This document shows positions 12,872 to 28,434 of a DNA stretch of 55,892 nt, piece by piece. Location of the stretch: NCBI GenBank assembly GCA_903828455.1, contig CAIKMJ010000016.1, positions 1 through 55,892 of the forward strand, given 5' to 3'. The notes under the pieces are model-generated. The model worked only from the letters and a program-made list of their open reading frames with translations, searched no databases and was not told where the DNA came from. How positions within the stretch are numbered: position 1 is the first letter of the stretch; each line of letters starts with the position of its first letter. A program made the translations under genes and the position numbers. Origin of the DNA: an uncultured Acidobacteriia bacterium (lineage in GTDB: Bacteria; Acidobacteriota; Terriglobia; Bryobacterales; Bryobacteraceae).

Positions 12872-13180
12872 ATGGTAGTAGTTGAAGCGGGACAGATGTG
12901 CGCAGCCGAATTATCCGGTGCGCAGGAAAGGGATCAAGACTTTCTTATGTACCAAGCCGTAGACCGGGATCAGGATGACAAGACACCCGAAGACAAGATC
13001 GTGGAAACGATCGACGCGGCGCTGCTGAAAGCAGGTGAGGCGATCAGCGCCGAAGGAATGAAGATCGCCGACCTCGTGAAGTTATTGCAACTCCGGAAAG
13101 AACTAGCGAAGAGCGGACCGAAACTTGTCGGCATTCGATGGGTCGGGGAATGCAACGATCATACGCCGATAAACGAGTAG
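12872..13180 (+). CDS. Small phage protein, candidate terminase small subunit
   Basis: This is a protein of up to 102 residues, largely helical and charged. A central amphipathic segment (KIVETIDAALLKAGEAISAEGMKIADLVKLLQLRKELAKS) resembles the helical region of phage proteins just upstream of TerL. No helix-turn-helix is obvious. The start is uncertain: ATG 12872, 12896 and 12947 are in frame, and the last has an AGGAAAGGGA stretch about 14 bases upstream. It overlaps the TerL reading frame by about 40 bases. The call as small terminase rests on position only. Confidence 0.4.
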   Translation: MVVVEAGQMCAAELSGAQERDQDFLMYQAVDRDQDDKTPEDKIVETIDAALLKAGEAISAEGMKIADLVKLLQLRKELAKSGPKLVGIRWVGECNDHTPINE

Positions 13181-14445
13181 TTAATTACAGACCGCTGAAG
13201 AGCCAGCAAGCGTTTCATGATTCCGTAGCGACGTTCAAGGGCTTTTCGGGACCTATTGGATCCGGCAAGAGCGCGGCGCTCTGCTATGAAGCTATTCGCA
13301 TGGCGTACGACAATCCGGGCACGGTGGGCCTGGTCGGGGCTCCGACGTATCCGATGCTGCGAGATGCGACGCTTACGGCGCTGATCGAAGCGCTGGAGAC
13401 GAATGAGATTCCGTACCAGCATTTGAAAGCAGAAAACACGCTGAAGCTCACCGAGCCGGGATCTGTAATTCTGCTGCGGTCCATGGAGGAGTACGAGAGG
13501 TTACGCGGGACGAATCTGGCGTGGTTCGGAGTCGATGAGCTGACTTACACGAAGGAAGAAGCGTGGCGGCGGCTGGAAGGCAGGCTTCGAGACCCGAAGG
13601 CAATCCGGCACGGCGGATTCGGCGTGTGGACGCCAAAAGGGTTCGACTGGGTGCACCGGCGGTTCGTGGCCGATCCGGTGCCGGGACACGAAGTGATCCA
13701 CGCGACGCCGTTTGAGAATCGGCATTTGCTGGCATGCCAGCCGGACTTTTACGAAAGGCTGCAGGGCAGTTACGACCAGCGGTTCTATGAGCAGGAAGTG
13801 CTTGGCAAGTACGTCAACGCCAAGGGGGGGCTGGTCTACTACGCGTTCGAGCGAGAGCGGAATGTGGTGCGGCAGGAGATGTCGCCGTACCAACCGCTGC
13901 ACTGGGCGCTCGATTTCAACGTGGATCCGATGAGCTCGGTGGTGGCGCAAAGAACAGGCGACGGTGTGGTTCGGGTGCTGGACGAGATTGTACTGAGAAG
14001 GGCGACGACGGAAGAGGCATGCGAGGAATTCGAGAAGCGATTCGGGAAGCCGCAGGGCGGAGTGGTGATCTATGGAGACGCGTCGGGAGAATCGAAGAAG
14101 ACGGCGGGAGCTTCGGACTACGACATTGTCCGGGCCTTCTTCCGATCCAGAGGCATTCGAGCCACCTACCGCGTGCCAAAGAGCAACCCGCTGGTGAAGC
14201 GACGGGTTGCCCAGGTGAATGGCCGGTTGCGGAATGCAGCTGGCGAGGTGATGTTGCTGGTGGACCCACGGTGTCGTGAGTTAATCGCGGACTTCGAGCA
14301 GGTGGCATACCTCGAAGACTCACTCGAAATCGACAAGAAACGGGACCGAAGGCGCACGCATACATCCGATGCGCTCGGCTACATGATCTATCAGGAGAGC
14401 GACGAGATTCCAAAGATAGGCGAACGCGGACAGCGGTTGCTATAG
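13138..14445 (+). CDS. Phage terminase large subunit
   Basis: TerL is the packaging ATPase/nuclease that cuts concatemers and pumps DNA into proheads through the portal. The ATPase domain has Walker A GPIGSGKS (38-45) and Walker B WFGVDE (D133, E134). The RNase H-like nuclease domain supplies acidic residues D259 (ALDFNVDP), D314 (IYGDASG) and D411 (HTSDALGYM), so the two-metal site looks complete. At 435 residues the length is normal. The start is unsure: ATG 13138 or ATG 13150, both inside the preceding gene. Confidence 0.88.
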   Translation: MGRGMQRSYADKRVVNYRPLKSQQAFHDSVATFKGFSGPIGSGKSAALCYEAIRMAYDNPGTVGLVGAPTYPMLRDATLTALIEALETNEIPYQHLKAENTLKLTEPGSVILLRSMEEYERLRGTNLAWFGVDELTYTKEEAWRRLEGRLRDPKAIRHGGFGVWTPKGFDWVHRRFVADPVPGHEVIHATPFENRHLLACQPDFYERLQGSYDQRFYEQEVLGKYVNAKGGLVYYAFERERNVVRQEMSPYQPLHWALDFNVDPMSSVVAQRTGDGVVRVLDEIVLRRATTEEACEEFEKRFGKPQGGVVIYGDASGESKKTAGASDYDIVRAFFRSRGIRATYRVPKSNPLVKRRVAQVNGRLRNAAGEVMLLVDPRCRELIADFEQVAYLEDSLEIDKKRDRRRTHTSDALGYMIYQESDEIPKIGERGQRLL

Positions 14446-14456
14446 GAGATGAACCG

Positions 14457-15842
14457 ATGGCAGGTCACCACATTGAACAGGAACATCCCGAATACAGTGC
14501 GAAGGCACGAATGTGGCGCCGCTACCGCCACCTGTATGCGGGCGGAGAGACATTTCGGGAGCATGCATCCGAATATCTGGTCCGGAGACAACGGGAAGGT
14601 CTGGAGGTCTACCAGGAGCGGCTCAACCGGGTTTTCTACGAGAACTATCTGGGCTCTATTATCGACTGGTACACAGCTACGCTGCTGCGCCGTGAGCCGG
14701 TAATCGAAATTGCCGGCAACAATCGACCGGGAAAAGACTTCTTTGCCGCGTTTACGGATGACTGCGATTTGCGCGGCACGACGCTCTCGCAGTTTTTCAG
14801 GCAGCAGATGACAGAGACACTGGTGTGCGGGAAGTCTTACATCGCGGTGGATTTCCCGCGGGCTGGAGACGACGCGCGGACGAGGGCCGAGGAAGACGCC
14901 ACGGGGCGCAGCCGGGCATATCTGGTCGGTTACAACGCGGAAGAGCTGATTAACTGGAGCCATAACGCGCAGGGAGAACTGGACTGGGTGGTGCTTCGGA
15001 CATCCTGGCTGAAGCAGGACAGCGTAAAGACGCTGGGCTGGAAGAAGGAAACGCGCTGGATCTATTACGACCGCGAGAAGTTCGAGATCTATGAGAAGCA
15101 GCAGGCAAAGACGCCCGAAGACAGCGTCATCGTGCTCATAGACGAGGGCAGACACGGGTTTGCAGCAATAAACAAAGTTCCCGTGTTTGAGTTGCGAGTC
15201 AGCGACGGACTCTGGCTGACCAATAAAATCGCACTGTTGCAGCTGGAGCATTTTAATAAGTCAAACGCTCTGGGCTGGGCGCTGACGATGGGTCTGTTCG
15301 CGATGCCGGTTGTGTATTCAGACCGCGAGTGGAACCAGATTACGGGCGAAAGCTACTACATTCAGCTTGGCCCTGAAGATAAGTTCGGGTGGACCGAACC
15401 TTCCGGACATGTGTTTCAGATCGCAGCCGACAATCTTACGCGATTGAAGGACGAGATCTACCGGGTTTCGTACCTTCTGCAGCAGGCTCAGGATGGAGCG
15501 CCAACGCCGAGGTCGGCCGAAAGCCGGCAATGGGACTTCAGTGTTACGCAGGAAATCCTGCGGGCGTACGGAGATACTGTCAAGAATTCACTGAGTACGC
15601 TGCTGGGAGCGATTGCGGAGGCCCGGCAGGACGGTTTGACGGTTCATGTCACGGGCCTCGACGAATTCGACATCACGAATTTTGCGAGCGAGGCGGCGGA
15701 CGCAAAAGCGCTTTTGAATTTGCAGATTCCTTCCGCGACCCTGACGAAGCAAATTCAGACACGTGTGGCGCTGAAGTACCTGAGCGACGCCCGACAGGAA
15801 GTAAAGAACCAGATTCGGGATGAAATCAACGCCACGACTTAG
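14457..15842 (+). CDS. Phage portal protein
   Basis: This 461-residue protein follows TerL by 11 bases behind an AGGAG site. It has the features of DUF4055/SPP1-like portals: an N-terminal helical region (YLVRRQREGLEVYQERLNRVFYENYLGSIIDWYTATLLRREP), a conserved central wing with GKSYIAVDFPRA and YNAEELINW, and a helical C-terminal crown (SESRQWDF-like SAESRQWDF, QEILRAYGDTVKNSLSTLL). It would form the dodecameric DNA gateway at one capsid vertex. Position between TerL and scaffold supports the call. Confidence 0.8.
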   Translation: MAGHHIEQEHPEYSAKARMWRRYRHLYAGGETFREHASEYLVRRQREGLEVYQERLNRVFYENYLGSIIDWYTATLLRREPVIEIAGNNRPGKDFFAAFTDDCDLRGTTLSQFFRQQMTETLVCGKSYIAVDFPRAGDDARTRAEEDATGRSRAYLVGYNAEELINWSHNAQGELDWVVLRTSWLKQDSVKTLGWKKETRWIYYDREKFEIYEKQQAKTPEDSVIVLIDEGRHGFAAINKVPVFELRVSDGLWLTNKIALLQLEHFNKSNALGWALTMGLFAMPVVYSDREWNQITGESYYIQLGPEDKFGWTEPSGHVFQIAADNLTRLKDEIYRVSYLLQQAQDGAPTPRSAESRQWDFSVTQEILRAYGDTVKNSLSTLLGAIAEARQDGLTVHVTGLDEFDITNFASEAADAKALLNLQIPSATLTKQIQTRVALKYLSDARQEVKNQIRDEINATT

Positions 15843-15938
15843 GCACCGCATCCCGTACGGCCGCCGCCGGGAGATCCCGGGGACCGCCGCGAGTGGGGAG
15901 CAACGAATGATTCAGCAATCCGAGGGGCAGACGAGGTT

Positions 15939-16496
15939 ATGAGCGAGTCAATCAATATACAGGCAGTCATTCGCCAGGCACTGGATGAATTTATTCAGCA
16001 AGACACGGCGCGGCGGGAACCGGCGCAGCAGACGGAACTGCTGGAGGAAAGGCGGCGCAGGGAGTCGCTGGAACGCCGAGTCAATGAACTGGTGGAAGAG
16101 AACAGGCGGGCCAGACTGGCGGCCGACGAAGCGGAGCGGGCAAACGGGATCCGCACCGAGCTGCAGAAGCTCGGTGTGGCGAAGGTTGAGCTCGCGTACC
16201 GCGCAGTGCAGAGCGGGGTCGTGAGGTCCGAAGATGGCCGTCTGGTTGCGCGCGGCGAAAACGGCGAGCAACCGGTGGCCGAATATCTGGCGGGTTTTGT
16301 TCAGGAGAACCCAGAGTTTTTGCCGGCACGGATACCCGGAGGAACAGGGATGACGGGTGCGCAGAAGGCGTCGCCCGCGGTGCGGGGGGGCCCGGTGGAC
16401 CTCGACCTGATCAGTCCCACAATGAGCAAGGAAGAACGGGACCGAGTACGGCAGGAGATTTTGCGGGTAGCATCGCAAACGCTGCGGGGGGCGTAA
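15939..16496 (+). CDS. Phage scaffold-like protein
   Basis: This 185-residue, Glu/Arg-rich protein has a predicted coiled coil at about residues 20-70 (ELLEERRRRESLERRVNELVEENRRARLAADEAERA). It is followed by a domain with VAEYLAGFVQENPEFLPAR, a pattern common in phage scaffolding proteins, and a short helical C-terminus (SKEERDRVRQEILRVASQTLRG). Scaffolds direct capsid shell assembly and then exit. It lies between portal and major capsid. No protease motif is seen, and no separate head protease gene is present in the cluster. Start ATG 15939 has GAGG just upstream. Confidence 0.65.
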   Translation: MSESINIQAVIRQALDEFIQQDTARREPAQQTELLEERRRRESLERRVNELVEENRRARLAADEAERANGIRTELQKLGVAKVELAYRAVQSGVVRSEDGRLVARGENGEQPVAEYLAGFVQENPEFLPARIPGGTGMTGAQKASPAVRGGPVDLDLISPTMSKEERDRVRQEILRVASQTLRGA

Positions 16497-16581
16497 CCCC
16501 GCGTCAGCATACCGCCGGTAAATCGCGGAATGTTCAGAGCAGCATTTTCGCGACGGCGGAGAAGTAAGCGCCACAAAAGCG

Positions 16582-16629
16582 ACGGGGACCATGCCCACAA
16601 TCCCGCAGGGATCGGGCAAGGGTCCCCGT
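16582..16629 (+). promoter_or_regulatory. Long hairpin before the capsid gene
   Basis: A nested inverted repeat: the outer 9-bp stem ACGGGGACC (16582-16590) pairs with GGTCCCCGT (16621-16629), with inner TGCCC/GGGCA and ATCCC/GGGAT arms. It ends about 20 bases before the AAGGAG site of the capsid gene. No U tract follows, so an mRNA-stabilising or processing role is more likely than termination. Confidence 0.6.
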
Positions 16630-16660
16630 TGGCATTTTGCGGCACAAATTAAGGAGAACG

Positions 16661-17572
16661 ATGCCAGCAATTACGTCAGCAAACGTAGCAAATGCGATCG
16701 TCAAACTGGTGGCGGCCGATGCGTTGCCCGCCCTGGTGGGGAACCTCGTGATGGGGAACCTGGTCAATCGCGATTATGAACCGACATTGGCGCAGGCGGG
16801 CGATACGGTGAACGTGCCGATCGCGCCGCAGCTTGTGGCCAACAATATCGCCGAGGGCGGCACGGTCCAGCCGCAGAATCCCGCGCTGGGGAATGCGCAG
16901 ATCGTGCTGAACACGCACGTGGAAGCAACATTCCAGATTCCGGACGTGACGAAAGTGCTCGCGGTGCCGGACCTTCTGCATGTATACATGCAGCCGGCGG
17001 TGGTGGCACTCGCGGAGAAGATCGAAAGCGATCTGCTCAATCTGTACGCGGGCTTTTCAGCGAACACGCCGCTGGGCACGGCGGGTACGCCGGTGACGGA
17101 GGCTGTGATCGATCAGGCGGAAACCACGCTTTTCGAGGCCAAAGTTCCGGTGAGCGAACCGAAGTATCTGGTGGTGGATCCGAATACCTATTCGGCAATG
17201 CGCCAGATTCCCCGGTTCAGCGAATTCCAGAGTGCGGGCGAGGCAGGCCTTCGCGCGCTGGTGGACGGCTCGTTCGGCAAGATCAAAGACTTCTTTGTCT
17301 TCCGTTCGCAGTTTGTTCCGATGACGGGCAGTGCGCCGGTCAACGCGCATAACCTGGCATTCTCGAGGAATGCGATCGGACTTGTGGTGCGCCGACTGCC
17401 GCAACCGCTCCCGGGGACGGGCGCGATCGCCGAATATGCCGAACTGGGTAACTTCGGGATGCGGGTGACGATGAGTTACCAGCCGAACACGCTTTCGCAG
17501 CAGTTCACCGTCGATATGCTGTACGGCTGCGCAATTCTGCGGAACAACTTCGCGGTGCAGATCAACAGCTAA
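16661..17572 (+). CDS. Major capsid protein (P22 coat/Gp5-like)
   Basis: This protein of about 303 residues starts at ATG 16661, which has AAGGAG five bases upstream. It begins PAITSANVANAIVKLVAADALPALVGNLVMGNLVNRDYEP and continues with GDTVNVPIAP and VEATFQIPDVTKVL, the pattern of HK97-fold coat proteins of the P22/Gp5 group. Later features include PKYLVVDPNTYSAMRQIPRFSEF and the basic GLVVRRLPQPLPGTGAIAEYAE. No N-terminal delta domain is evident, consistent with a separate scaffold. Hairpins on both sides probably tune expression of this abundant protein. Confidence 0.85.
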   Translation: MPAITSANVANAIVKLVAADALPALVGNLVMGNLVNRDYEPTLAQAGDTVNVPIAPQLVANNIAEGGTVQPQNPALGNAQIVLNTHVEATFQIPDVTKVLAVPDLLHVYMQPAVVALAEKIESDLLNLYAGFSANTPLGTAGTPVTEAVIDQAETTLFEAKVPVSEPKYLVVDPNTYSAMRQIPRFSEFQSAGEAGLRALVDGSFGKIKDFFVFRSQFVPMTGSAPVNAHNLAFSRNAIGLVVRRLPQPLPGTGAIAEYAELGNFGMRVTMSYQPNTLSQQFTVDMLYGCAILRNNFAVQINS

Positions 17573-17590
17573 GCGGGCAGCGCGAGCAGG

Positions 17591-17625
17591 AAAACGGGCG
17601 ATGTGTTTTTCGCGTCGCCCGTTTT
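17591..17625 (+). terminator. Hairpin after the capsid gene
   Basis: An 11-bp perfect inverted repeat AAAACGGGCGA (17591-17601) with TCGCCCGTTTT (17615-17625). The A-rich/T-rich ends make it look like a bidirectional intrinsic terminator, which would reduce read-through from capsid into tail genes. Confidence 0.6.
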
Positions 17626-17666
17626 GAACGGTGTCGCCGGGCGAATGGCCAGGCGACGACCTATTT

Positions 17667-17697
17667 CAGGTACTGCGCTTTCGAGGTGCAGTACCTG
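17667..17697 (+). promoter_or_regulatory. Second hairpin after the capsid gene
   Basis: A 10-bp perfect inverted repeat CAGGTACTGC (17667-17676) with GCAGTACCTG (17688-17697), followed by no U tract, about 20 bases before the GAGGAG site of the next gene. Role unknown. Confidence 0.5.
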
Positions 17698-17730
17698 GAT
17701 TCAGTATTGCGAATCAAGCGAGGAGAATTC

Positions 17731-18036
17731 ATGGACTTGCGGGCTTACTACAGAAGGCTCCGGCAGGCCGAGGCGGAACTCACGGGCGAGGAATTCGTCA
17801 TGGTGAGCCTGGCGACACCGGAAGGCGGCAAGGCGGGCATCCGCACGGAAGTGCCAAGAGCAGTTGCCGCCAAGCTATTGGCGGAAGGGAAGGCAACTGT
17901 GGCATCCGAGGAAGAAGCGAAGGCGTACCGTGAGGCGATGCGCGAGGCGAAGGCGAAGTTCGACGAAGAAGAAGCCGCGCGCCAGGTACAGGTCATGGTG
18001 ATTCCGACGCGCTCTCGCAGAAAGCAGCGGGAATAA
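17731..18036 (+). CDS. Small phage structural-module protein, unknown
   Basis: This 101-residue protein has ATG 17731 behind GAGGAG. It is mostly helical and highly charged (AYYRRLRQAEAELTGEE, AKAYREAMREAKAKFDEEEAARQ). A middle beta-like segment VMVSLATPEGGKAGIRTEVPRAVAAKLLAEGKA is followed by a basic tail. It sits between capsid and connector, where many phages place a head decoration or head-tail joining protein. I do not recognise a family. Four bases separate it from the next gene. Confidence 0.55.
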   Translation: MDLRAYYRRLRQAEAELTGEEFVMVSLATPEGGKAGIRTEVPRAVAAKLLAEGKATVASEEEAKAYREAMREAKAKFDEEEAARQVQVMVIPTRSRRKQRE

Positions 18037-18039
18037 GCC

Positions 18040-18804
18040 ATGGCCCTGTTTGCGGACGGGCCGGCGCCCACGATCGACAATCTGATCAACGAAGATTCCG
18101 GGCTACTGGACGTTGCCGAGACCACGGGAATCAACGTGACTGCAAAGCTCCGGCTGGCTCATGAAGAAATGGAGTCAGAATTGCGGCTTTGGCTGAACAG
18201 GCCACGGGCAGCCGCGGAGCTGCTTTGGACGGCAGCGCCGCGAATAGAACAGATTGTAACTACGCCGCCGCTGAAGCGCTGGGAGACCATGCTTTCGCTT
18301 GCGATGGTGTATCGGGACGCGTACTTCAGCGCCCAGGTGGACCGGTATCAGGCCAAGTGGCAGGAATTTCTCCAACTGGCACGAGACGCCCGGGAAAGAT
18401 TGATCGCAAGCGGGCTTGCAATGGTCAGCGACCCGGTTCCGCAGCCGGTTCCTCCGGTTCTGGGCACTACGCCCGCACCTTACCCGGGCGGCACATATTA
18501 TGTGTCCGTTGCGGGGGTGAATGCAAAGGGACAGGAGGGAGCCGCGTCGTGGGCATCGTCAATCACAACGACGACGGGGAACGCGATTCTGGTGGCGCCG
18601 GCGGCATGGAACAGAGACGTCGCTACTTATCGCGTTTACGCGGGACCGTCGCTGGATGCGATGGTGCGACAAAACACTGTCGATTTGCGAGCAGGGCTGA
18701 CTTACACGTATCTGCCCGGACAAATCACCACCGGTACGCCAGCCGGAAACGGACAGGCGCCGGAGTTTGTGCGGCCGCTGACGCGGACGATCCTGAGGGG
18801 TTAA
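18040..18804 (+). CDS. Head-tail connector-like protein with Ig/FN3-like C-terminal module
   Basis: This is a two-part protein of 254 residues. Residues 1-125 are helical (AKLRLAHEEMESELRLWL, KRWETMLSLAMVYRDAYFSAQVDRYQAKWQEFLQLARDARERL), like head-tail connector proteins that sit under the portal. Residues about 135-235 are beta-rich, with GGTYYVSVAGVNAKGQEGAAS and the ending YRVYAGPS...YTYLPG, a fibronectin-III or Ig-like pattern. A similar module occurs in the tail hub downstream, so it may be surface-exposed. The function is inferred from position and composition. Confidence 0.55.
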   Translation: MALFADGPAPTIDNLINEDSGLLDVAETTGINVTAKLRLAHEEMESELRLWLNRPRAAAELLWTAAPRIEQIVTTPPLKRWETMLSLAMVYRDAYFSAQVDRYQAKWQEFLQLARDARERLIASGLAMVSDPVPQPVPPVLGTTPAPYPGGTYYVSVAGVNAKGQEGAASWASSITTTTGNAILVAPAAWNRDVATYRVYAGPSLDAMVRQNTVDLRAGLTYTYLPGQITTGTPAGNGQAPEFVRPLTRTILRG

Positions 18805-18807
18805 GAC

Positions 18808-19302
18808 ATGGCTGGCATAACGGGAACGCTGACTAACAATGTACTGGCCCTGCTGACCGAAACCGCGGCGGGGGTGAATGCCCGGGCGGCGGCGATTGAA
18901 AAGGCCGACCCGCTCGTGCAGACGCCGGCAATCCGGACGGTGCTGACGCACAACGTGAGCGTCGAACTCGCGGAAAAGGCGGGGCACACGAGTTATCCAA
19001 GCCTGCTGGTGTATTGCGAGAAGACGCAAAACGCTCTCAAAGAGAAATTCCGGGAGTTTTCGGGCAACGCGCGGGTAGTGGTGGAAGTTCGCCATTCGCA
19101 GGACAGGCTCCATGGCCTTGACAAGTCTCTGGAAGTTTACGTTGATGCCGTCTGCGCGCTGCTCGATGATTCACGCGGAGACTGGGGCGGAGGAGCGTTT
19201 TATCCGGGTGGTTATGAGGTCAGCTATGAACCGGTTGTGCGGGGCGGGAAGAATTTCCTGCAGCGCGCGAAGGTGGGATTCGACGTGGAGGTGAGTAGAT
19301 AA
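18808..19302 (+). CDS. Tail terminator/completion-like protein
   Basis: This 164-residue protein, start ATG 18808 with GAGGGG upstream, has TPAIRTVLTHNVSVELAEKAGHTSYPSLLVYCEKTQNALKEKFREFSGNARVVVEVRHSQDRL. It then has ALLDDSRGDWGGGAFYPGGYEVSYEPVVRGGKNFLQRAKVGFDVEV. A mixed alpha/beta pattern ending in strands is typical of tail terminator proteins that cap the tail tube. Its position between connector and major tail protein agrees. Three bases separate it from the next gene, consistent with one operon. Confidence 0.55.
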   Translation: MAGITGTLTNNVLALLTETAAGVNARAAAIEKADPLVQTPAIRTVLTHNVSVELAEKAGHTSYPSLLVYCEKTQNALKEKFREFSGNARVVVEVRHSQDRLHGLDKSLEVYVDAVCALLDDSRGDWGGGAFYPGGYEVSYEPVVRGGKNFLQRAKVGFDVEVSR

Positions 19303-19305
19303 CCA

Positions 19306-20478
19306 ATGGCATACATTTCATCGAACGCGAACCGCTGGTACTGCGCGCAGGAAACTGCCTACGGGCAGGTACCAACGATCACCGCAGCAAACCGCATTCC
19401 GGCGGTAAAGCTGAGCGTGCAGAATCAAAGACAGAAAAGTCACAGAAAAGACAAGACAGGAAGCCGCACGTGGGCGGGACTGCCGGCCGCGATGCGGCGC
19501 GAGACGACGTTTGACGCGACGACGTACATGCGGGACTGGCCGCTGCAAACGGCGCTTCCCGGTTGCGACCCGCTGTTACAGGCTGCGTTGGGCGGGGCGG
19601 GCGTGCTGTGGCCGGGCGGAACGACCGCCGCCGCGGGAAGCACGACGTCGACGATTGTGTTCGCAGGCGCGCACGGACTCGCGCCCGGGTCGGGCCTTGT
19701 GTATAACAGCGAGATTCGGTTCGTCGCGAGCGTGACCGACGCGCATACGGTTGTCCTGAACGCGCCGTTTTCAAGCGCGCCTCGCGCCGCATCGGTGCTC
19801 ACGCCGACGGCCAGCTATGCCCCGGCGTCCGAATTGCCGAGCGTTAGTTTGTTCGACTACTGGAACCCGACCACCGCCGTGCAGCGGGTCCTGACAGGAG
19901 TCGCAATCGATCGGTTCACGGTGAGCCTTAATGGAGACTTTCACGAGTTTGGATTTAAGGGCTGGGCGCAGGACGTAATGGACAGCGCTTCGTTCGCCGC
20001 AGGCCTGGGCGGATTGACGACATTCCCGATTGAGCCGGCGACAACCGCATTCCCCTATTCGCCCGTTCCGGGCAACCTGGGTCAAGTGTGGCTGGGAGTC
20101 AGTCCGACGCAGTTTTTTACGGTTGCACAAGCTTCCATAGAACTGCGAAACAACCTCGACATGCGGCTGAACGAATTCGGATCTGTGTTACCGCGGGGAA
20201 TTGCACCAGGAGCACGCGAAGTGTCGCTTTCGCTGGAACTGTTCGAACAGGATGATACTCCAACAGCGGCACTGTATCAGGCAGCGCGGCAGCAAACGCC
20301 GGTGAGCATGATGTTCCAACTGGGCCAGACCAACGGGCAGCTGATGGGAATTTGGATGAAGAACGTGGTGCCGGAGGTGCCGGCCTTTGACGACAGCGAA
20401 CACCGGCTGAAGTGGAAGTTCAGCGAATCGCGCGCGCAGGGCGGGCTGGACGACGAACTCATGGTGGCGTTTGGATAG
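19306..20478 (+). CDS. Major tail (tube) protein
   Basis: This 390-residue beta-rich protein starts at ATG 19306 with GGAGGTGA upstream. It has YISSNANRWYCAQETAYGQVP at the N-terminus, like phage tail tube proteins, then a Gly/Thr/Ala-rich insert (about 100-165) reminiscent of an exposed loop or Ig-like decoration. A tube-like second half follows: VSLNGDFHEFGFKGWAQDV, VSLSLELFEQDDTPTAALYQAARQQTPVSMMFQLGQ. It would polymerise around the tape measure. It lies just upstream of the tail assembly chaperone, the conserved location in siphoviruses. Confidence 0.7.
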   Translation: MAYISSNANRWYCAQETAYGQVPTITAANRIPAVKLSVQNQRQKSHRKDKTGSRTWAGLPAAMRRETTFDATTYMRDWPLQTALPGCDPLLQAALGGAGVLWPGGTTAAAGSTTSTIVFAGAHGLAPGSGLVYNSEIRFVASVTDAHTVVLNAPFSSAPRAASVLTPTASYAPASELPSVSLFDYWNPTTAVQRVLTGVAIDRFTVSLNGDFHEFGFKGWAQDVMDSASFAAGLGGLTTFPIEPATTAFPYSPVPGNLGQVWLGVSPTQFFTVAQASIELRNNLDMRLNEFGSVLPRGIAPGAREVSLSLELFEQDDTPTAALYQAARQQTPVSMMFQLGQTNGQLMGIWMKNVVPEVPAFDDSEHRLKWKFSESRAQGGLDDELMVAFG

Positions 20479-20485
20479 CAATGAC

Positions 20486-20863
20486 ATGGGAGAAATGAAC
20501 TGGGAAAGCCGGACGCTGGTGCGTCCGGCCGGATGGCCGGGAGTCGAACTGGTCATCGCAAAAATGAGCTTTGGCCGACGCACAGAACTTATGCGGCGTG
20601 TGCGCGAAGTCAGCGGACGGCTGGAGTACTTTCAGGCCGGACAAAGCGCGGACAACAGCATGGAGGCGAGCCTATTGGCGAGCGAGATAGACCGGCTGTA
20701 CGTCATCTGGGGACTCGAAGAAATTCGGGGGCTGCTTCTGGATGGGGAGCGTGCGACGGCGGAATCACTTATCGAACGGGGACCCGAGCAACTCTTTCAG
20801 GAAGCTCTGGCGGCTGTGCGGGCTGAGATCGGGCTCAACGAGGCAGAAAGAAAAAACTTATAG
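20486..20863 (+). CDS. Tail assembly chaperone, short (zero-frame) product
   Basis: This 125-residue product is read in the zero frame from ATG 20486 (TTG 20471 and ATG 20495 are alternatives). It has WESRTLVRPAGWPGVELVIAKMSFGRRTELMRRVRE and a helical body with LLASEIDRLYVIWGLEEI. It is acidic and helical, like gpG-type chaperones that coat the tape measure before tube assembly. Its end carries a -1 slippery heptamer (A AAA AAC at 20851-20857) three codons before the stop, allowing a longer fusion product. No enzyme activity is expected. Confidence 0.7.
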   Translation: MGEMNWESRTLVRPAGWPGVELVIAKMSFGRRTELMRRVREVSGRLEYFQAGQSADNSMEASLLASEIDRLYVIWGLEEIRGLLLDGERATAESLIERGPEQLFQEALAAVRAEIGLNEAERKNL

Positions 20864-21210
20864 TCGCGTTCCACTTCGCGCTGGCCACCAGCCAGTCGCG
20901 TGAACGGACCGGATGGGATTGCGACAGTTGCAGGCGTTACGGTCTGGAAAGCAAGCGGCGCTGTGGATTCCTGCCTGAGGAATTGCGGGGCGAGCCCCGT
21001 ATTGTTTGGGGGCGTAAGCAGGTGCAGAGCGACGAATGTCCGAAGTCGTTGGTGACAGGAGAGAGCCTTGCGATGGTGGAAGCCTTTTTCACCCGAAAAA
21101 GGCTGGGAATCAACACATCAATCGAGACGGCAGCCCGCACAGTGGATGCCTTTTTAATCCTGCAGGATGAGATGGAGCGTGAGGAACGGGATGGCACATC
21201 ACAGCATTGA
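20486..21210 (+). CDS. Tail assembly chaperone, -1 frameshift fusion product
   Basis: Predicted -1 frameshift product of about 241 residues: 124 zero-frame residues, a slip at 20851-20857, then 117 residues in the -1 frame, open from CTT 20857 to TGA 21208-21210. The extension begins LIVAFHFALATSQSRERTGWD and contains four cysteines (DCDSC, RRC, DEC) that could bind zinc, then SLAMVEAFFTRKRLGI and a helical end. This is the gpG/gpGT arrangement of siphophages. A separate gene starting at TTG 20983 is less likely because the start is weak. Confidence 0.72.
20851..20905 (+). promoter_or_regulatory. Programmed -1 ribosomal frameshift signal
   Basis: The heptamer A AAA AAC (20851-20857) is in the correct phase relative to the upstream frame (codons AGA AAA AAC TTA TAG). 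A stem-loop follows: CGCGCTGGC (20877-20885) pairs with GCCAG-T-CGCG (20891-20900, one bulge), extendable by GTTC/GAAC (20868-20871 with 20902-20905). Spacer to the extended stem is 10 bases. Confidence 0.78.
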
Positions 21211-21820
21211 AGAAGTCTTTCGGGCAATCCGGCCAAAGGGTGTGCAGTTCCCTGCCGATTCAACGATCAGCGCGGGAGTCGCCGCGGGAAGCGGCGATCT
21301 GGGAAGCGCGCTGTCGCAGGCGGGCCAGCAGATCGCGCAGTTGCAGGCGGCGTTTCAGCAACAGGCCGCGTTGATTCAGTCGAACACGCTCGCGCTCCAG
21401 AGCAACACGTCGGCGAAAAGTGGCGGATCGCTCAGTTCGTTAGGATCCGGAATCGGCTCCGGGTTGCTCGGCGGAGGATTGGGACTGCTTTCGCCGCTTA
21501 TCTCGGGCATTGCAAGTCTGTTTGGCGGCGGTGCTAAGACGCCCGCGCCGCTTCCGGTCTACATACCGCCTCCGTCAGTGGCACTCAGCGCGACGCTGCA
21601 AGGCAACGATATCCGCCCGACAGCATCGTCCAGTGCGCCGCCATCCGGCGGAAGCGCACCGAGTGCCTCCGCGCAAGCCACGGTGGCGCCACAAATAACA
21701 GTGAACGTGCATGCGATGGACAGCCAATCTTTTATGGACCGCAGTTCCGATATAGCGAATGCTGTGCGAGAGGCCATGCTGAATTTGCACCCGATAAATT
21801 CCGTGGTCGCCGAGTTGTAA
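21191..21820 (+). CDS. Very short tape measure-like protein
   Basis: This protein of 209 residues starts at ATG 21191. A Gln/Ala-rich helical region (GSALSQAGQQIAQLQAAFQQQAALIQSNTLALQ) precedes a Gly-rich hydrophobic segment (GIGSGLLGGGLGLLSPLISGIASLFGGG), like the transmembrane part of tape measure proteins. The C-terminus VNVHAMDSQSFMDRSSDIANAVREAMLNLHPINSVVAEL is typical of phage tape measure C-termini. If so, the tail would be very short (about 30 nm by the 1.5 angstrom-per-residue rule). It overlaps the chaperone frame by 20 bases. A tail accessory protein is the alternative. Confidence 0.6.
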   Translation: MAHHSIEEVFRAIRPKGVQFPADSTISAGVAAGSGDLGSALSQAGQQIAQLQAAFQQQAALIQSNTLALQSNTSAKSGGSLSSLGSGIGSGLLGGGLGLLSPLISGIASLFGGGAKTPAPLPVYIPPPSVALSATLQGNDIRPTASSSAPPSGGSAPSASAQATVAPQITVNVHAMDSQSFMDRSSDIANAVREAMLNLHPINSVVAEL

Positions 21821-21823
21821 GTT

Positions 21824-22174
21824 ATGGCCACGTTTCCCACATTGAGAACCGGCGCGGTGGCACAGTATCCGCTGGACTACAGTACACGGTTCGCGACGCA
21901 GACGGTCCGGTTCCTTGACGGCAGCAGTCAACGGTACCGGATTTCCGGATCCGGATTACGGCGCTGGCAGATTCGACTCGACCTGCTTGACGAGAGCGAA
22001 CTGGCAGCGCTGATCGACTTCGTGGACGCCCAGACCAGCAACACGTTCCAGTTTGCAGATCCACTTTCCGGCACGATTGTGGCGAGTTGCGTCCTTTCCG
22101 GCGATCCATTCGAAGCCATTCTGGAGGCCGAAGGTCGAGGAAGAGCTTCGCTCGTAATTGAGGAAATACGATGA
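21824..22174 (+). CDS. Distal tail-like protein, first paralog
   Basis: This 116-residue protein begins MATFPTLRTGAVAQYPLDYSTRF and has FLDGSSQRYRISGSGLRRWQIRLDLLDESELAALIDFVDAQ, then FQFADPLSG. The layout (target strand pattern, then RRWQIRLDLLDESELAALIDF, then an F-x-D-P turn) is shared by the next gene, so the two are tandem paralogs of a distal tail or baseplate adaptor family. It overlaps the next gene by four bases (ATGA), a sign of translational coupling. The exact role is inferred from location between tape measure and hub. Confidence 0.6.
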   Translation: MATFPTLRTGAVAQYPLDYSTRFATQTVRFLDGSSQRYRISGSGLRRWQIRLDLLDESELAALIDFVDAQTSNTFQFADPLSGTIVASCVLSGDPFEAILEAEGRGRASLVIEEIR

Positions 22175-22947
22175 ACTGGTACCCACAGATCGGGAGTGGC
22201 TCGCTGGCTCAGTTTCCGCTGGGACGATCGAGACAATGGCGGGCTATCACAAACTGGCTGGAGAACGACGAGCGTGTAGTCCTTGCGGACGCCGCTTCAA
22301 GCCACATTGAATGGACGCTTAAGTATCGGGAGTTATCGGATGCAGAGGCCACGGCTCTGCGGAATTTATTCACTGCGTCCGAGGGATGTTTCGGTGCATT
22401 CGGCTTCATTGATCCGACCGCGAATCTGATCGGATCAAGCAGCGATCTGACGCAGCCGGTCTGGAACGCTGGCTTAATGGCAGCAGGCGGAGGGAATTCG
22501 GATCCGACCGGCGGCAGTTCAGCGTGGAATCTCACGAACAGCGCTCCCGGACCTCAAAGTCTGCAGCAGACGCTCGAAGTACCGGCAGACTATACGGTCT
22601 GTTTCAGCATGTGGCTGCAGAGCGAGACCTACACGAGCGTGACGCTGTGTCGAGACGACGTGCAACAACCTGTGGTGGCGGGACCGGTCTGGGCAAGGCA
22701 TTTTGTGTCCGGACGCGCGTCTGGCACCGGTAGTTCGTCCGTGTTGAGCATAACCGTGCCGGCCGGTCAAACGGTGCGTATTTGGGGCCCGCAGGCCGAG
22801 GCGCAGCCGTACCCGTCACAGTACAAGCCAACGCTTGCAGTCGGCGGGATTTATCCGGAAACCTATTTCGCTAAAGACGAACTAACCATTACCAGCACAG
22901 CTCCGGGACTATCGTCCTGCGACGTGACACTGGTCTCACGAGGTTAA
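22171..22947 (+). CDS. Distal tail-like protein with carbohydrate-binding-like insertion
   Basis: This 258-residue protein starts in the stop of the preceding gene. Residues 1-90 repeat its pattern: YPQIGSGSLAQFPLGRSRQWR, SHIEWTLKYRELSDAEATALRNLF, FGFIDPTANL. The next 130 residues (WNAGLMAAGGGNSDPTGGSSAWNLTNSAPGPQSLQQTLEVPADYTVCFSMWLQ...VRIWGPQAEAQPYPSQYKPT) resemble the jelly-roll carbohydrate-binding domains found in phage receptor-binding proteins. The ending TSTAPGLSSCDVTLVSRG closes a beta strand. It probably links the tail tip to a surface ligand. Confidence 0.6.
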   Translation: MNWYPQIGSGSLAQFPLGRSRQWRAITNWLENDERVVLADAASSHIEWTLKYRELSDAEATALRNLFTASEGCFGAFGFIDPTANLIGSSSDLTQPVWNAGLMAAGGGNSDPTGGSSAWNLTNSAPGPQSLQQTLEVPADYTVCFSMWLQSETYTSVTLCRDDVQQPVVAGPVWARHFVSGRASGTGSSSVLSITVPAGQTVRIWGPQAEAQPYPSQYKPTLAVGGIYPETYFAKDELTITSTAPGLSSCDVTLVSRG

Positions 22948-22957
22948 CAGCCACGCC

Positions 22958-25900
22958 ATGCAAAGCGCATATACAGCCAAGGAAAACACTGCCGGGGACA
23001 CGCCGCTCCTCCTATTTACATGCACCTTGTCCGACGGGAGTCAGCACCACTGGAGCAGCCAGACGGTTGTGTGGGACGGAATAACCTATGCAGGCCGAGT
23101 CCTGAGACACAACCTGTTCGAGGCTCACATGGCTTCCGCCACGCAGGTGGGTGGCACACCGAAATTGACATTTGAGTTGGCCAATGCGGATTCGGCACTT
23201 TCTGAAATCGAGGCACAGATCGGGTTTAAGGGTTCGCGCCTGCTGGTCCAGACGGTCTTTTACGATTTGAATGCCGCAACGGCGAGTAGTGATGCCGTCG
23301 CCGTCTTCAAAGGCCTGATCAACTCTCCGGATCTTGTGACCGAGACTTCTTTCCGTCTGAGTGCGATGAATCGCATGTCAATGCAGCGAAATGTGATTCC
23401 GGAAGTCAGCGTGCAAAGGATGTGCCCGTGGCGCTTCCCCACAACAGCGGCGCAGCGACTGGAAGCCGTGGATGGAGGCGGGCGCGGCACTCATTCACCG
23501 TTTTATCGTTGCGGCTATTCGCCAGACCAGACGAACGGCGTTGGCAATCTGAACGGAACGGTTCCCTTTACAACGTGCGCATATACGCGCGCCGACTGCG
23601 AAATGCGTGGAATGTTCTCCACCGATTCCAGCGGACACACCACGGCCCGTTTCGGAGGATTGGAATTTGTCCCTCCGACCATACTTGTGCGTGGCGCCGG
23701 CCAGAAGGCCTTACAGCTGTCGGCCGTCCAAAGCAATCAGGCCGCCTATAACAATTCCGTTCCTCTCATATACGGCACACAATGGACGCAGCCGCCGGTC
23801 GTGCTTTCGCGCAATGACGGGAATCTGACGCGCATGGAAGTGCTGCTGGGCATGGGGGAAATCGAAGGCGTCCTCTCGGTTCTGGTGAACGGAGTGGAAA
23901 TTCCGCTGGGAGTTCAGGGCCGCAATATGACGGCGACGGGCTGGTACAACCTGGTCTCAACCGGCGCCCGCAGCGGCGGCTTCGACCTGAATTTCACAGA
24001 CGCACATGGCACTCCTCAGGGCGACCCGTATGGCAGTATGGCTTACCTGGCCGTCGTCGTACCGAATCGCATCAGCGATGGCACCGGCATTCCGGCCGTG
24101 CAGGTGCTCGTGCAGGGAACAAAGCTGCTCCGCTTTGACAACAGCGGAACTTCGCTTGGAACTGCCTTTTCCGCCAATCCCGCGTGGGTCCTGCTGGATA
24201 TCCTGCTGCGTACCGGATTTGAGTTGAGTGAAATTGACGTAACCAGTTTCGCTTTGGCCGCGGCGTATGCGGATCAATTGCTGACGGTGGACGATCCGGT
24301 CGGCGGGAACACGCAGTTGCCTCGCTTCGAGTGCAACTTTGCCATGAACTACCCCGACAGCGCGGGCGATGTGATCCGGGGGATCCGAAATAACTCCCGC
24401 ATGTATCTTGTGCTGAATTCCGCGGGGCTGGTGGAAGTGCGTGTGGAGAACGCGTTTGCGCTGCAACAGCCGGTAAAGCCCGCAGCCAGTAATTCGGCCG
24501 AGCCATTCAATGGCGGTTGGCCTGCGTATGAGTTTGACGCCCGCTCGATTGCCAGAACCAATGACGGCGCTTCAACGGTAAGACTCACTACAAAAGGCGC
24601 TTCGGATACGGCCAACCGGCTGACGATTGAATTTCAGGACCGCTTTAACCAGTTCCAACAGGACAGCCTTTCGCTCAGCGATCAGGATGACGAGCTGCTT
24701 TGCAGCCAAACAGTGGCCGCAGCCTGGGATGCCGTCGGAATTTCCAGCTTCAACCAGGCGGCCCGGATGCTGTTGCTCGGACTCAATCGCGGATTGCAGG
24801 GCAACCTGTTCATTGAATTTCAGACCAGCGTCAAGGCGCTCGGACTGATGCCCGGGGACCTGATCACGGTTACGTACGCCAAGGAAAACCTGCAGCGAAC
24901 GCCATTTCGGATAACGCAGGTCAAACCGGGCGCAAGCTTTCGCACCGTCACAATTTCTGCACAACTGCACAACGACGCGTGGTACTCGGATTCGGTAACC
25001 GGCATCATTGGAGGCCGCGGGCGCCAGACCGGCGTTACCTCGGGTTTGCCCGCGCCAGTCGCGGGCGTGACCGCGGATGCAGACGGACTCTTGCAACTCG
25101 GCATCACGGAAGCGGAGGTTTCGGGCGGAAATGGCGCCACGCAAGTGGAGTTGGCGGTGTCCTTTACCGCGCCCTCGGGGACGCCCGGAACGTTGCCCTC
25201 GCCGCTGATGAGCCTGGCGACCATGGTCAGCAGTTCTGGCGGCACGCTGGCGGCGGCAACAACATACTTCTATGCGATGAGTGCTGTCGATACCGATGGC
25301 AACCAGAGTCCTCTCTCATTCATCGCACAGGCGACGACCCCGGCAGGATCTTCCACCAATACCGTCACGCTCAGTGGGATTGCCCTGCCCTCCGGCACCG
25401 CAGGCTTTCACGTCTACCGTGGCGTGACCTCGGGCTTCCTGCAACGGATCGCTTCAGCTGTTCCGCCTTCCCCAACATTTACGGATTCGGGATTCACTGC
25501 ACAAGCAGTGCTTCCGCCGGATCCAAATTTTGATCACGTGAATATGTACTGGCGCTGGGAGCTTCTGCCGGAAGCATCCGCCAGTATTCATTCGGCGACT
25601 ACTATCGGCAATTCAACACTCCAGTTACCGGTCAACGGGTACACGAACGCGGTGGTGCGGATCACTCGGGGGACGGGCGCAGGACAGGAACAACTGATCG
25701 TCAGCAACACGGCGACGACGCTGACTACGGCCGCCACGTGGGCGGTAGCGCCGGACACTACGAGTTATTTCACTATCGCGGAAACTTCGTGGCGCACAGG
25801 TGCGCGAGGCTTTACGAGTCCGATCCGAATCGACGTGCCGGAACGAATCGGCTCGGGTGTTGAGCTATGTGCGCGAGCGGCCAACGCAGCCAACGACGAA

Positions 25901-26863
25901 GCGGCTTACGAGTTGTCGCCCGTGACGCGCTGGGTGCTCGGACAGTCAGGCGGGCTGTCGGCCGACTCCGGAGTTCCTGGCGCCCCGGCGTTCGGTGTGG
26001 CCGTTTCTTCTTCGGTGGCCGGAACACTCGAATTAGGCGGAATCGGGTTTGCCGACCTCGTGAACACCAGCAGCATCGTGGCCGGGACCTACACCTTCCA
26101 CTATTACGATGAAATCAATGGAACTGCGGCAGGTGCTGTTACATTCCCCGTGTCCGCGAGCGATTCGACCATTACTTTCGGAGCCACTTACGACATCGGC
26201 ACTCTGCTGCAGATTGACCAGGAGATTGTCCAGATAACCGGGGCGAACAGCGGCGGCGGTTTCAATGTAGATCGCAATATGTTTTCATCGGGCGCTTCAA
26301 CCCATGCTGCGGGGACCGCTGTTTATCAACTGGATGCAAAAGTCGTCATCGTCCCGTTCATCAGAAACTTCTTCGGCAGCCCGGCCAGCGGCGACTGGAA
26401 ATACAGCGTGCATCTTCCGAACGTTCGGCTGGCAGCGGCAGAACTCTATATGACGAATGCCTTCGGCGCCGGCCCGGTGACCTCCAATCCATATACCGGA
26501 ACGATCGACTCGGGACTCCGGACGATGGCGGGCGGTCAATATTCGTTTCAGGTGAGTGGCTATCTTGCGATTCAGACAAATGCGGCCCCGGCGCTCATTG
26601 TGGATACGGACCATTCGGTTCGTGACGTATTCGGGATCGCCGGAACAGCGGCCACGGGCGCCGGAATTACGGCACAACTGAACCGCAACGGAGCCGCTTA
26701 CACAACAGTTACATTCAACGCCGGCGCGACCAATTCGGTGACACCTGTCGAGAGCGGCTTCGGCCTGCCCGCACTCCGGGCCGGAGATGTCCTGACGCTC
26801 GACATCACAAGCGTAGGCACCACGATTCCCGGCAGCGACCTGACCGTGATCCTCCGGCTCTGA
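22958..26863 (+). CDS. Giant tail hub/host-recognition protein
   Basis: This is a 1,301-residue protein at the tail tip. Residues 1-250 resemble lambda gpL/DUF2163: FKGLINSPDL, then four cysteines C156, C185, C207 and C214 followed by RFGG, the pattern of a [4Fe-4S] cluster-binding tail-tip protein. The central part (about 250-690) has VQVLVQGTKLLRFD and FNQFQQDSLSLSDQDD, as in tail hub (gpJ-like) proteins. From about 720 there are FN3/Ig-like modules (AATTYFYAMSAVDTDGNQSPLS, GFHVYRGVTSGFLQRIAS). A Gly/Ser-rich beta C-terminus likely binds the host. Confidence 0.7.
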   Translation: MQSAYTAKENTAGDTPLLLFTCTLSDGSQHHWSSQTVVWDGITYAGRVLRHNLFEAHMASATQVGGTPKLTFELANADSALSEIEAQIGFKGSRLLVQTVFYDLNAATASSDAVAVFKGLINSPDLVTETSFRLSAMNRMSMQRNVIPEVSVQRMCPWRFPTTAAQRLEAVDGGGRGTHSPFYRCGYSPDQTNGVGNLNGTVPFTTCAYTRADCEMRGMFSTDSSGHTTARFGGLEFVPPTILVRGAGQKALQLSAVQSNQAAYNNSVPLIYGTQWTQPPVVLSRNDGNLTRMEVLLGMGEIEGVLSVLVNGVEIPLGVQGRNMTATGWYNLVSTGARSGGFDLNFTDAHGTPQGDPYGSMAYLAVVVPNRISDGTGIPAVQVLVQGTKLLRFDNSGTSLGTAFSANPAWVLLDILLRTGFELSEIDVTSFALAAAYADQLLTVDDPVGGNTQLPRFECNFAMNYPDSAGDVIRGIRNNSRMYLVLNSAGLVEVRVENAFALQQPVKPAASNSAEPFNGGWPAYEFDARSIARTNDGASTVRLTTKGASDTANRLTIEFQDRFNQFQQDSLSLSDQDDELLCSQTVAAAWDAVGISSFNQAARMLLLGLNRGLQGNLFIEFQTSVKALGLMPGDLITVTYAKENLQRTPFRITQVKPGASFRTVTISAQLHNDAWYSDSVTGIIGGRGRQTGVTSGLPAPVAGVTADADGLLQLGITEAEVSGGNGATQVELAVSFTAPSGTPGTLPSPLMSLATMVSSSGGTLAAATTYFYAMSAVDTDGNQSPLSFIAQATTPAGSSTNTVTLSGIALPSGTAGFHVYRGVTSGFLQRIASAVPPSPTFTDSGFTAQAVLPPDPNFDHVNMYWRWELLPEASASIHSATTIGNSTLQLPVNGYTNAVVRITRGTGAGQEQLIVSNTATTLTTAATWAVAPDTTSYFTIAETSWRTGARGFTSPIRIDVPERIGSGVELCARAANAANDEAAYELSPVTRWVLGQSGGLSADSGVPGAPAFGVAVSSSVAGTLELGGIGFADLVNTSSIVAGTYTFHYYDEINGTAAGAVTFPVSASDSTITFGATYDIGTLLQIDQEIVQITGANSGGGFNVDRNMFSSGASTHAAGTAVYQLDAKVVIVPFIRNFFGSPASGDWKYSVHLPNVRLAAAELYMTNAFGAGPVTSNPYTGTIDSGLRTMAGGQYSFQVSGYLAIQTNAAPALIVDTDHSVRDVFGIAGTAATGAGITAQLNRNGAAYTTVTFNAGATNSVTPVESGFGLPALRAGDVLTLDITSVGTTIPGSDLTVILRL

Positions 26864-26915: not shown

Positions 26916-28145
26916 TTGCTGCTGGTTCAGAACGTATCGAAACTCTATCGCCTTTATCGGACTCCGTTCGACCGGATTCGGGAGTTGAATCCGCTGCGGA
27001 AGAGTCCGCTGCACACAGACTTCTGGGCGCTGCGCGATATCTCGTTCAGCGTTGAGCGCGGTGAAGTGGTCAGCCTGGTCGGGCCGAATGGGTGCGGCAA
27101 GAGCACGCTGCTTCAGGTGATCAGCGGAATTCTGCAGCCCACCACCGGGCGAGTGGTGACGCGCGGGCGAGTAGCTGCTTTGCTGGAATTGGGAGCGGGA
27201 TTCAATCCGGATTTTTCCGGCCGGGAAAATGTCTTTATCAATGGCGAGATCATGGGAATCAGCCGCGCCGAAATGGAGCGGAACCTCCCGCTGATCGAGG
27301 CGTTTGCCGAAATCGGCGAATTCATTCACCGCCCGGTCAAGGAATATTCGAGTGGCATGTACGTCCGGCTGGCGTTCTCGACCGCCATTCACGTCAATCC
27401 CGACATCCTCATCGTGGACGAAGCTCTGGCCGTGGGCGATGCCGTGTTCGCCAACCGCTGCATTCGTAAATTTGAGGAACTGCGCGAAAGGAAGACCACC
27501 GTGCTGTTTGTCTCGCACGACCTCGGGCTGGTCAAGCAGCTTTCCAACCGCGCCATTTTTCTGCTGAACGGGCGCATGGAGGCCGAGGGCGAACCCAAGC
27601 ATGTGATCGATAAGTATATCGGCGTCGTACTGGAGCGCCAGAAGGCATTTCAGCAGTCCGACCGGAAGGAACATCCGACAGCTTCCAACCGCCATGGCGA
27701 TGGTTCGAGCCAGATCCTCGACGTGACGCTGATCGATCAGGCCGGGCGGCCTTGCGGCGTCGTTTCAAGCGGCGAACGCGTAACCATCCGGATTCGGACC
27801 GTCTTCCGCCAGAAGATGGATGAGCCGATGGTCGGAATTCTCATTCGTAACCGCATCGGCATGGAGATTTACGGGACGAATACGCGGATCGAGCAGGTCG
27901 ATCTGGGAAGCTACGAGGCCGGCGAAGAGCTCGACATCGAATTTCAGTTTGAATGCTGGCTGACACCGCAGCATTACACGATCACGGTCGCAACACAATA
28001 CGCGGACGGCTCAAGCCACGACTGGCTCGATGACGTGATTTCCTTCGAGGTCCTCGCCCAGCGTCAGGCGGCCGGCGTCGCAGATCTGCGGGCGCGCATC
28101 GAATGGCGGAAGACAAAGCCCGATGAAAACGCGGCTCAGTCTTAA
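26916..28145 (+). CDS. Polysaccharide ABC transporter ATP-binding protein, Wzt-like
   Basis: This 409-residue ATPase has an N-terminal nucleotide-binding domain with Walker A GPNGCGKST (56-64), a signature SSGM (145-148), Walker B ILIVDE (E169) and switch H201. The YRLYRTP and ELGAGFNPDFSGREN stretches are diagnostic of the Wzt/TagH group that exports O-antigen or teichoic-acid chains. Residues about 260-400 form a separate beta-sandwich like the carbohydrate-binding domain of Wzt. The start is TTG 26916. No partner permease is in the window. It lies just downstream of the phage hub. Confidence 0.82.
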   Translation: MLLVQNVSKLYRLYRTPFDRIRELNPLRKSPLHTDFWALRDISFSVERGEVVSLVGPNGCGKSTLLQVISGILQPTTGRVVTRGRVAALLELGAGFNPDFSGRENVFINGEIMGISRAEMERNLPLIEAFAEIGEFIHRPVKEYSSGMYVRLAFSTAIHVNPDILIVDEALAVGDAVFANRCIRKFEELRERKTTVLFVSHDLGLVKQLSNRAIFLLNGRMEAEGEPKHVIDKYIGVVLERQKAFQQSDRKEHPTASNRHGDGSSQILDVTLIDQAGRPCGVVSSGERVTIRIRTVFRQKMDEPMVGILIRNRIGMEIYGTNTRIEQVDLGSYEAGEELDIEFQFECWLTPQHYTITVATQYADGSSHDWLDDVISFEVLAQRQAAGVADLRARIEWRKTKPDENAAQS

Positions 28146-28434
28146 AGTCCGGGCGGGGGCTCCGGTGACGAAGTTCGCGGGCGAGTACGGCGACGGATGG
28201 AAACTCCACGTCGCCGCGCCGCCGGTGGACGGCAAAGCCAACGACGCGATCGTGCGATTTCTGGCGCGCCTCGCAGGTATCGCGGCCGCCGATGTGCGGA
28301 TCGTAAGCGGCGCTTCGGCCAGCACAAAGATTGTGGAATTCGAGGGGCTCGATGCGGCCACGCTCCAACGCGCTATCCTCGAATCGCATGGACGTCCAAC
28401 GGATACAGGAAGCGCTCCGGCGCGAAAAGCTTGA
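28123..28434 (+). CDS. DUF167/YggU family protein
   Basis: This small basic protein (103 residues) has the family pattern LSLKVRAGA, then the conserved VAAPPVDGKANDAIVRFLARL loop-helix and VRIVSGASASTKIVEFEG. The structure class is an alpha/beta fold with a conserved groove; its role is not known, though genes of this group often lie near cell-envelope or division genes. It begins inside the end of the Wzt-like gene and overlaps the following peptidase gene, so all three appear co-translated. Confidence 0.82.
   Translation: MKTRLSLKVRAGAPVTKFAGEYGDGWKLHVAAPPVDGKANDAIVRFLARLAGIAAADVRIVSGASASTKIVEFEGLDAATLQRAILESHGRPTDTGSAPARKA

Follow-up and report, generated by a model that had tools for sequence, protein, structure and literature searches.

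The tail assembly chaperone-like locus and its putative slip site

We analysed a stretch of 55,892 nucleotides from an uncultured bacterium of the family Bryobacteraceae (Acidobacteriota), which is the whole of contig 16 (CAIKMJ010000016.1) of a 4.4-Mb genome in 80 contigs (GCA_903828455.1) and is hereafter referred to as the window. The subject is a pair of overlapping reading frames, tail assembly chaperone-like, that carries a putative programmed -1 ribosomal frameshift site and lies in a 13.7-kb cluster of terminase, portal, coat and tail genes (13138-26863, forward strand, as are the features within it), delimited by profile matches and locus comparison. The zero-frame open reading frame (ORF; 20486-20863), identified by ORF reading, homologue comparison and predicted fold, starts with ATG at 20486 or, from homologue comparison, at 20495, and ends with TAG at 20861-20863. 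Close to its end stands the slippery heptamer A AAA AAC (20851-20857), read in the zero frame as AAA (20852-20854) and AAC (20855-20857) and followed by TTA and the stop; its phase is correct for an X XXY YYZ site, and one sense codon separates it from the stop. An open -1 frame runs from 20827 (after a stop at 20824) to TGA at 21208-21210, and the extension (20857-21210, from ORF reading and alignment), when counted from CTT at 20857, comprises 117 codons plus stop, with four cysteines and no ATG, GTG or TTG before 20983. An earlier note on this DNA had pointed to an in-phase heptamer ahead of the zero-frame stop and to a -1 frame open for 117 codons up to 21210, and our reading agrees on both points. 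The heptamer alone is unremarkable, AAAAAAC being present twice on the forward strand of the window (9814 and 20851).

By sequence, the zero-frame protein gave no convincing family match in Pfam, PHROGs, NCBIfam or the PDB sequences, while its predicted fold appears to resemble that of tail assembly chaperones. The -1 domain gave nothing convincing in the same four collections and no match in the phage collection, and no convincing neighbour of its fold was found among viral models or the 37 PDB chains compared. Invariant residues in the alignment indicate that the -1 domain is protein-coding and conserved between loci; its four cysteines are invariant in all 120 loci aligned and may serve in metal binding.

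Conservation of the predicted frameshift arrangement

As a measure of conservation, we examined loci from 130 of the 169 genomes of the same family that carry a homologue of the tail gene lying directly upstream (19306-20478). Both ORFs were present in 125 of the 130 loci, and in 124 of these 125 the second ORF is in the -1 frame of the first. The earlier note had named, as what would refute its reading, homologues that lack the heptamer and have their -1 frame interrupted by a stop; mostly the opposite was found, AAAAAAC being kept in phase within the overlap in 123 of the 125 loci, and two uncut loci (L104 and L183) have lost the heptamer and the -1 domain together. The 125 loci span 57 genera, with the heptamer seen in 56 of them. 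The zero-frame stop directly follows the heptamer in 105 of the 123 loci and comes one codon later in 16, while in L092 and L173 the heptamer is present and a further break shifts the stop. In L134 the heptamer is kept and the match to the -1 domain sits in the third frame; L143 has AAAAAAT in place of AAAAAAC, and L128 keeps the -1 domain without the heptamer. Among the five loci with one or both ORFs missing, three (L098, L129 and L182) are short fragments bordering a contig end, L104 has retained the chaperone, and L183 is without both ORFs of the chaperone region. In a smaller set of 50 loci (35 from viral and genome collections, 15 from the family set), within which L003 and L072 both represent the window's own locus or nearly so, the heptamer was found in 49; the exception, L020, is without the canonical heptamer and keeps the -1 domain. 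L128, L020, L104 and L183 can be listed as natural losses of the canonical heptamer.

The level of conservation was set against codon use in these ORFs, where lysine is encoded by AAA in 28% and asparagine by AAC in 66% of cases. The expected frequency of AAA AAC for Lys-Asn is about 0.19, or about 0.04 when a preceding arginine codon ending in A is included, neither being an exact probability since the loci share ancestry. Even with this caveat, chance or passive retention of the heptamer in nearly all loci is not credible.

Further out, L063 and L218 carry AAAAAAT at the same place. Two loci from outside the order (L237 and L238) and the prophage-like L221 carry an in-phase AAAAAAC and a homologue of the -1 domain, but in each of them the zero frame continues for some 38 to 65 codons; the tight junction of heptamer and stop is therefore a trait of this lineage, and the heptamer is more widely distributed. 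In another prophage-like relative, L220, the frame relation is kept with no recognisable heptamer.

A conserved RNA stem downstream of the heptamer

Of the 60-nucleotide windows taken from 120 loci, only those placed 0 to +12 from the heptamer had a folding energy that departed from that of dinucleotide shuffles (mean z of -1.57 at 0, -1.58 at +7 and -0.91 at +12, against -0.38 to +0.32 at the other offsets tried). RNAalifold, run on a MAFFT alignment, gave one stem with its 5' arm beginning five bases past the heptamer; on an ungapped 80-column stack it gave no structure, because the loop varies in length. In the window the 5' arm lies at 20863-20873, after a 5-nucleotide spacer (20858-20862), and the 3' arm, which begins at +48 in 107 of the 120 loci, at 20914-20925, both arms being defined by RNAalifold and covariation. 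The stem-loop of the earlier note (20877-20900) is predicted as an apical hairpin, but it had been placed too narrowly, as it forms the tip of the conserved stem, variable in sequence and length between loci.

Among 118 distinct sequences, 94.9% of the cells in the stem are paired, compared with 89.4% after shuffling; cells with changes on both sides number 57 against 19.0, and covariation is 0.223 against 0.144. None of 500 shuffles was as high on these three measures; as the shuffles do not remove the relatedness among rows, weight also falls on the way in which the pairs have changed. Slid versions of the stem pair at most 51%. At the base of the stem, the alignment shows valine with aspartate (G-C), leucine with glutamate (C-G) and isoleucine with aspartate (A-U), the pair being kept while the amino acids differ, and one pair further in, alanine with glycine, C-G replaces U-A, again with the pair kept despite the amino-acid change. 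Two further measures, pairs that show a double change (4 vs 3.5) and further pair types (15 vs 14.1), do not exceed the shuffles, and it counts against the stem that the outermost pair is non-standard in 19 of the 118 rows.

A covariance model built from the stem rows found one site each in 44 of 45 sources, the miss being L220, and nothing else in 0.6 Mb, with the reservation that such a model also scores plain sequence and that the window and L003 repeat a training sequence. The 41 distinct matches showed 7 double changes against 1.2, a comparison that leans towards the model, to which the matches were aligned. A search of Rfam over 20400-21300 gave two sub-threshold matches, neither at the element. 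An upstream stimulator resembling a Shine-Dalgarno sequence was rejected as a conserved part: between -18 and -4, 40 of 120 loci have GAGG and 33 have AGGA. The comparison of loci thus shows, at the level of sequence, the heptamer, its phase, the stem and the coding of the -1 frame.

Proposed mechanism and alternative explanations

We consider it highly probable that the tail assembly chaperone gene of this cluster, a host-domesticated and gene-transfer-agent-like head-tail cluster of Bryobacteraceae, is subject to programmed -1 ribosomal frameshifting. The majority of ribosomes would terminate at the zero-frame stop and yield the short chaperone, while some would re-pair one base back on A AAA AAC, helped by the RNA stem five nucleotides downstream, continue from CTT and append the 117-residue domain with its four conserved cysteines. 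By analogy with gpG/gpGT of lambda, the short product would serve as a coat on the tape-measure protein, and the less abundant long one would recruit the tail-tube protein. For lambda, passages of PMC5009743 describe a short-to-long product ratio of 30:1 as crucial, the short product being the partner of the tape measure and the extension that of the tube protein; according to the same source, A AAA AAG is a far more efficient shift site in E. coli than A AAA AAC. A weaker slippage on A AAA AAC would fit both a low ratio and the need for a stem in this gene.

The next codon of the -1 frame is always CTN (CTG 67, CTA 40, CTC 10 and CTT 6 in 123 loci), and its free third base argues for elongation through leucine and against a restart, which should fix the start codon. 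This bears on the alternative that survives best, namely two separate genes, with the -1 ORF translated by stop-start coupling (for example at a CTGA overlap) or from a start of its own. Such an arrangement would agree with a junction at which, in most loci, the zero-frame stop overlaps the -1 frame, with CTG as the commonest first codon, and with a usual start codon in the -1 frame before the CxxC motif in 80 of 120 loci (ATG in 25). However, 56 of the 123 loci have CTA, CTC or CTT as their first -1 codon; given this variable third base, a CTG restart at the junction is rejected as a general mechanism. No ATG, GTG or TTG precedes CxxC in the other 40 loci, an argument that covers a third of the loci, the window included, and for separate genes the A-run and the stem would both be superfluous. 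We therefore regard two separate genes as very unlikely.

Even less probable is slippage of RNA polymerase on the A-run, by which an edited message would yield the fusion. An A-run is indeed present at the site, with a length of 7 in 4 and of 10 in 2 of 120 loci, but it is exactly 6 in 114, which is short for transcriptional slippage, and the phase, the final C and the downstream stem are all kept. Least credible of all is the reading of the break as gene decay or as an error of sequencing, for which one could cite the further breaks near the site in L092, L173 and L134 and the stop inside the short tape-measure-like ORF of L073, but which is already contradicted by the same frame relation in 124 of 125 loci and by the conservation of both proteins.

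The head-tail cluster and its surroundings

The earlier note had located the frameshift between the major tail and tape measure-like genes. The position fits, but the identities are less firm than was claimed: the upstream protein (19306-20478) is a 'minor tail protein' in PHROGs, would be a tube or major tail protein by position, and has no match among the PDB sequences, while the tape-measure-like gene on the other side (21167-21820, 217 amino acids) gave a weak match over 37 residues (E 0.00036). From stop to stop, the tape-measure-like ORF has a median length of 224.5 amino acids (range 85-337; 120 loci), which points to a short tail; a short tape-measure-like gene is found likewise in the gene transfer agent of Rhodobacter capsulatus (RcGTA). 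In L073 (genome G124) this ORF contains an in-frame stop, and the longer locus of the same genome, L208, gives an ORF of 62 amino acids.

The cluster also holds a P22-type coat protein, a 258-amino-acid protein matching GTA_spike_fiber (22171-22947; 48.7 bits against the NCBIfam cut-off of 36) and a 1301-amino-acid protein with a Phage-tail_3 domain. Motor and nuclease residues of the terminase are nearly invariant in 24 rows. In the part of the window ORFs scanned, no integrase, replication, lysogeny or lysis gene was found. The portal matched 23 records of the phage collection, the best among the matches listed having 28.4% identity. Beyond the cluster lie host genes for ribosomal protein L17, aldehyde dehydrogenase, an ABC ATPase with a Wzt_C domain, an M24 peptidase, a penicillin-binding protein, MreB, MreC and acetate kinase. 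The ABC ATPase and the peptidase (26916-29551) follow directly downstream of the cluster, and they do so likewise in L002, L208, L216 and L218, that is in 4 of the 25 long loci that were compared; several of the 25 stop short of the region in question. Just upstream, at 11758-12789, is a glycosyltransferase whose match to Pfam GT4-conflict is borderline (26.4 bits, with the cut-off at 26).

Distribution and inheritance

Of 200 genomes sampled from the family, 169 carry a homologue of the upstream tail gene, among them 118 of the 141 of good quality; the positive genomes cover 69 of 76 genera, and 158 of the 169 have a single match. A portal search of a phylum sample matched 6 of 396 genomes, with two strong matches from the same family and four weak ones besides, and the order sample gave 38 matches among 61 genomes: 35 of 41 in the same family and, in two other families, 2 of 2 and 1 of 18. 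The genome contig collection contained one relative, a metagenome-assembled genome of Bryobacteraceae, 61% identical in the upstream tail protein. In a tree of this protein built from the 130 loci, 28 genera have at least two members and 25 of them are monophyletic, compared with 0 or 1 in 20 label shuffles. On these sequence comparisons, the cluster is inherited largely vertically, with losses, which is the pattern of a domesticated element.

Second, divergent copies of the head genes were found in L220 (G041:C156) and L221 (G100:C1), with portals of 34% and 30% identity and genes spaced more widely. Both keep the chaperone and the -1 domain in the -1 relation, and they are probably prophages with a relationship to the element's source. 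Many copies of the cluster appear in IMG/VR as viral contigs (loci L003-L071), though it is kept in bacterial genomes of the family, and soil viral counts may thus include it.

Comparison with known systems

The tail-chaperone frameshift of lambda gpG/gpGT and of long-tailed phages is described in part of PMC5009743, where Xu, Hendrix and Duda 2004 is cited. The likeness to gpG/gpGT put forward in the earlier note holds for arrangement and apparently for predicted fold, but not for sequence, in which no match was found. Unlike the lambda type, the heptamer is A AAA AAC, the stop mostly abuts it, a conserved stem follows five nucleotides downstream, the extension carries four cysteines, and the cluster is kept by hosts and is not a phage. 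The g-t frameshift of the haloarchaeal virus HCTV-2 also uses A AAA AAC, this archaeal virus being likened here by its description in a passage of PMC5009743.

The compact head-tail cluster and its vertical inheritance recall RcGTA, as portrayed in passages of PMC11841831, and so do the Phage-tail_3 domain and the GTA_spike_fiber match above cut-off. In contrast to RcGTA, the coat is of P22 type, the portal belongs to another family, the match to GTA_megatron reached 15.1 bits against a cut-off of 800, the host is in Acidobacteriota, and particles and transfer are putative. No frameshift in RcGTA is reported in the literature passages covered, which is no proof of its absence. In the passages of Eichorst 2018 (PMC5900883) covered, one predicted prophage each is given for Bryobacter aggregatus MPL3 and Solibacter; the two named prophage clusters list neither, but KBS 96, a strain from the same subdivision 3, is among the members of cluster 140. 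As far as these passages go, earlier authors may have counted this element as a prophage.

Significance of the probable frameshift in Bryobacteraceae

Tail-chaperone frameshifting is of a textbook kind, and its setting here appears undescribed: in open-licence literature, through partial listings, no description was found of a gene-transfer-agent-like cluster in Acidobacteriota or of this frameshift element. A tail-chaperone frameshift serves a purpose only where tails are made. That it is retained in the greater part of the family argues that the cluster still functions and is maintained by its hosts, and is not a decaying prophage, and the RNA pairs kept while the encoded amino acids change are part of the evidence. 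The earlier note's suggestion that tail assembly is still under selection is supported by the conservation of both the slip site and the whole head-tail cluster. The site would thus offer a sequence-only hint for separating living gene transfer agents from remnants, and the cluster, in which gene transfer would be the function, is a candidate gene transfer agent in a group of soil bacteria for which none was found described in the open-licence literature listed. On balance we lean slightly towards the view that Bryobacteraceae carry an undescribed and separately domesticated gene transfer agent, passed down the family, whose short-tailed, DNA-packing particle still depends on the frameshift giving a long chaperone with a four-cysteine, metal-binding domain, and that the slip site has been locked against the stop under selection for a fixed product ratio, while relatives outside this lineage keep a longer overlap of the two frames.
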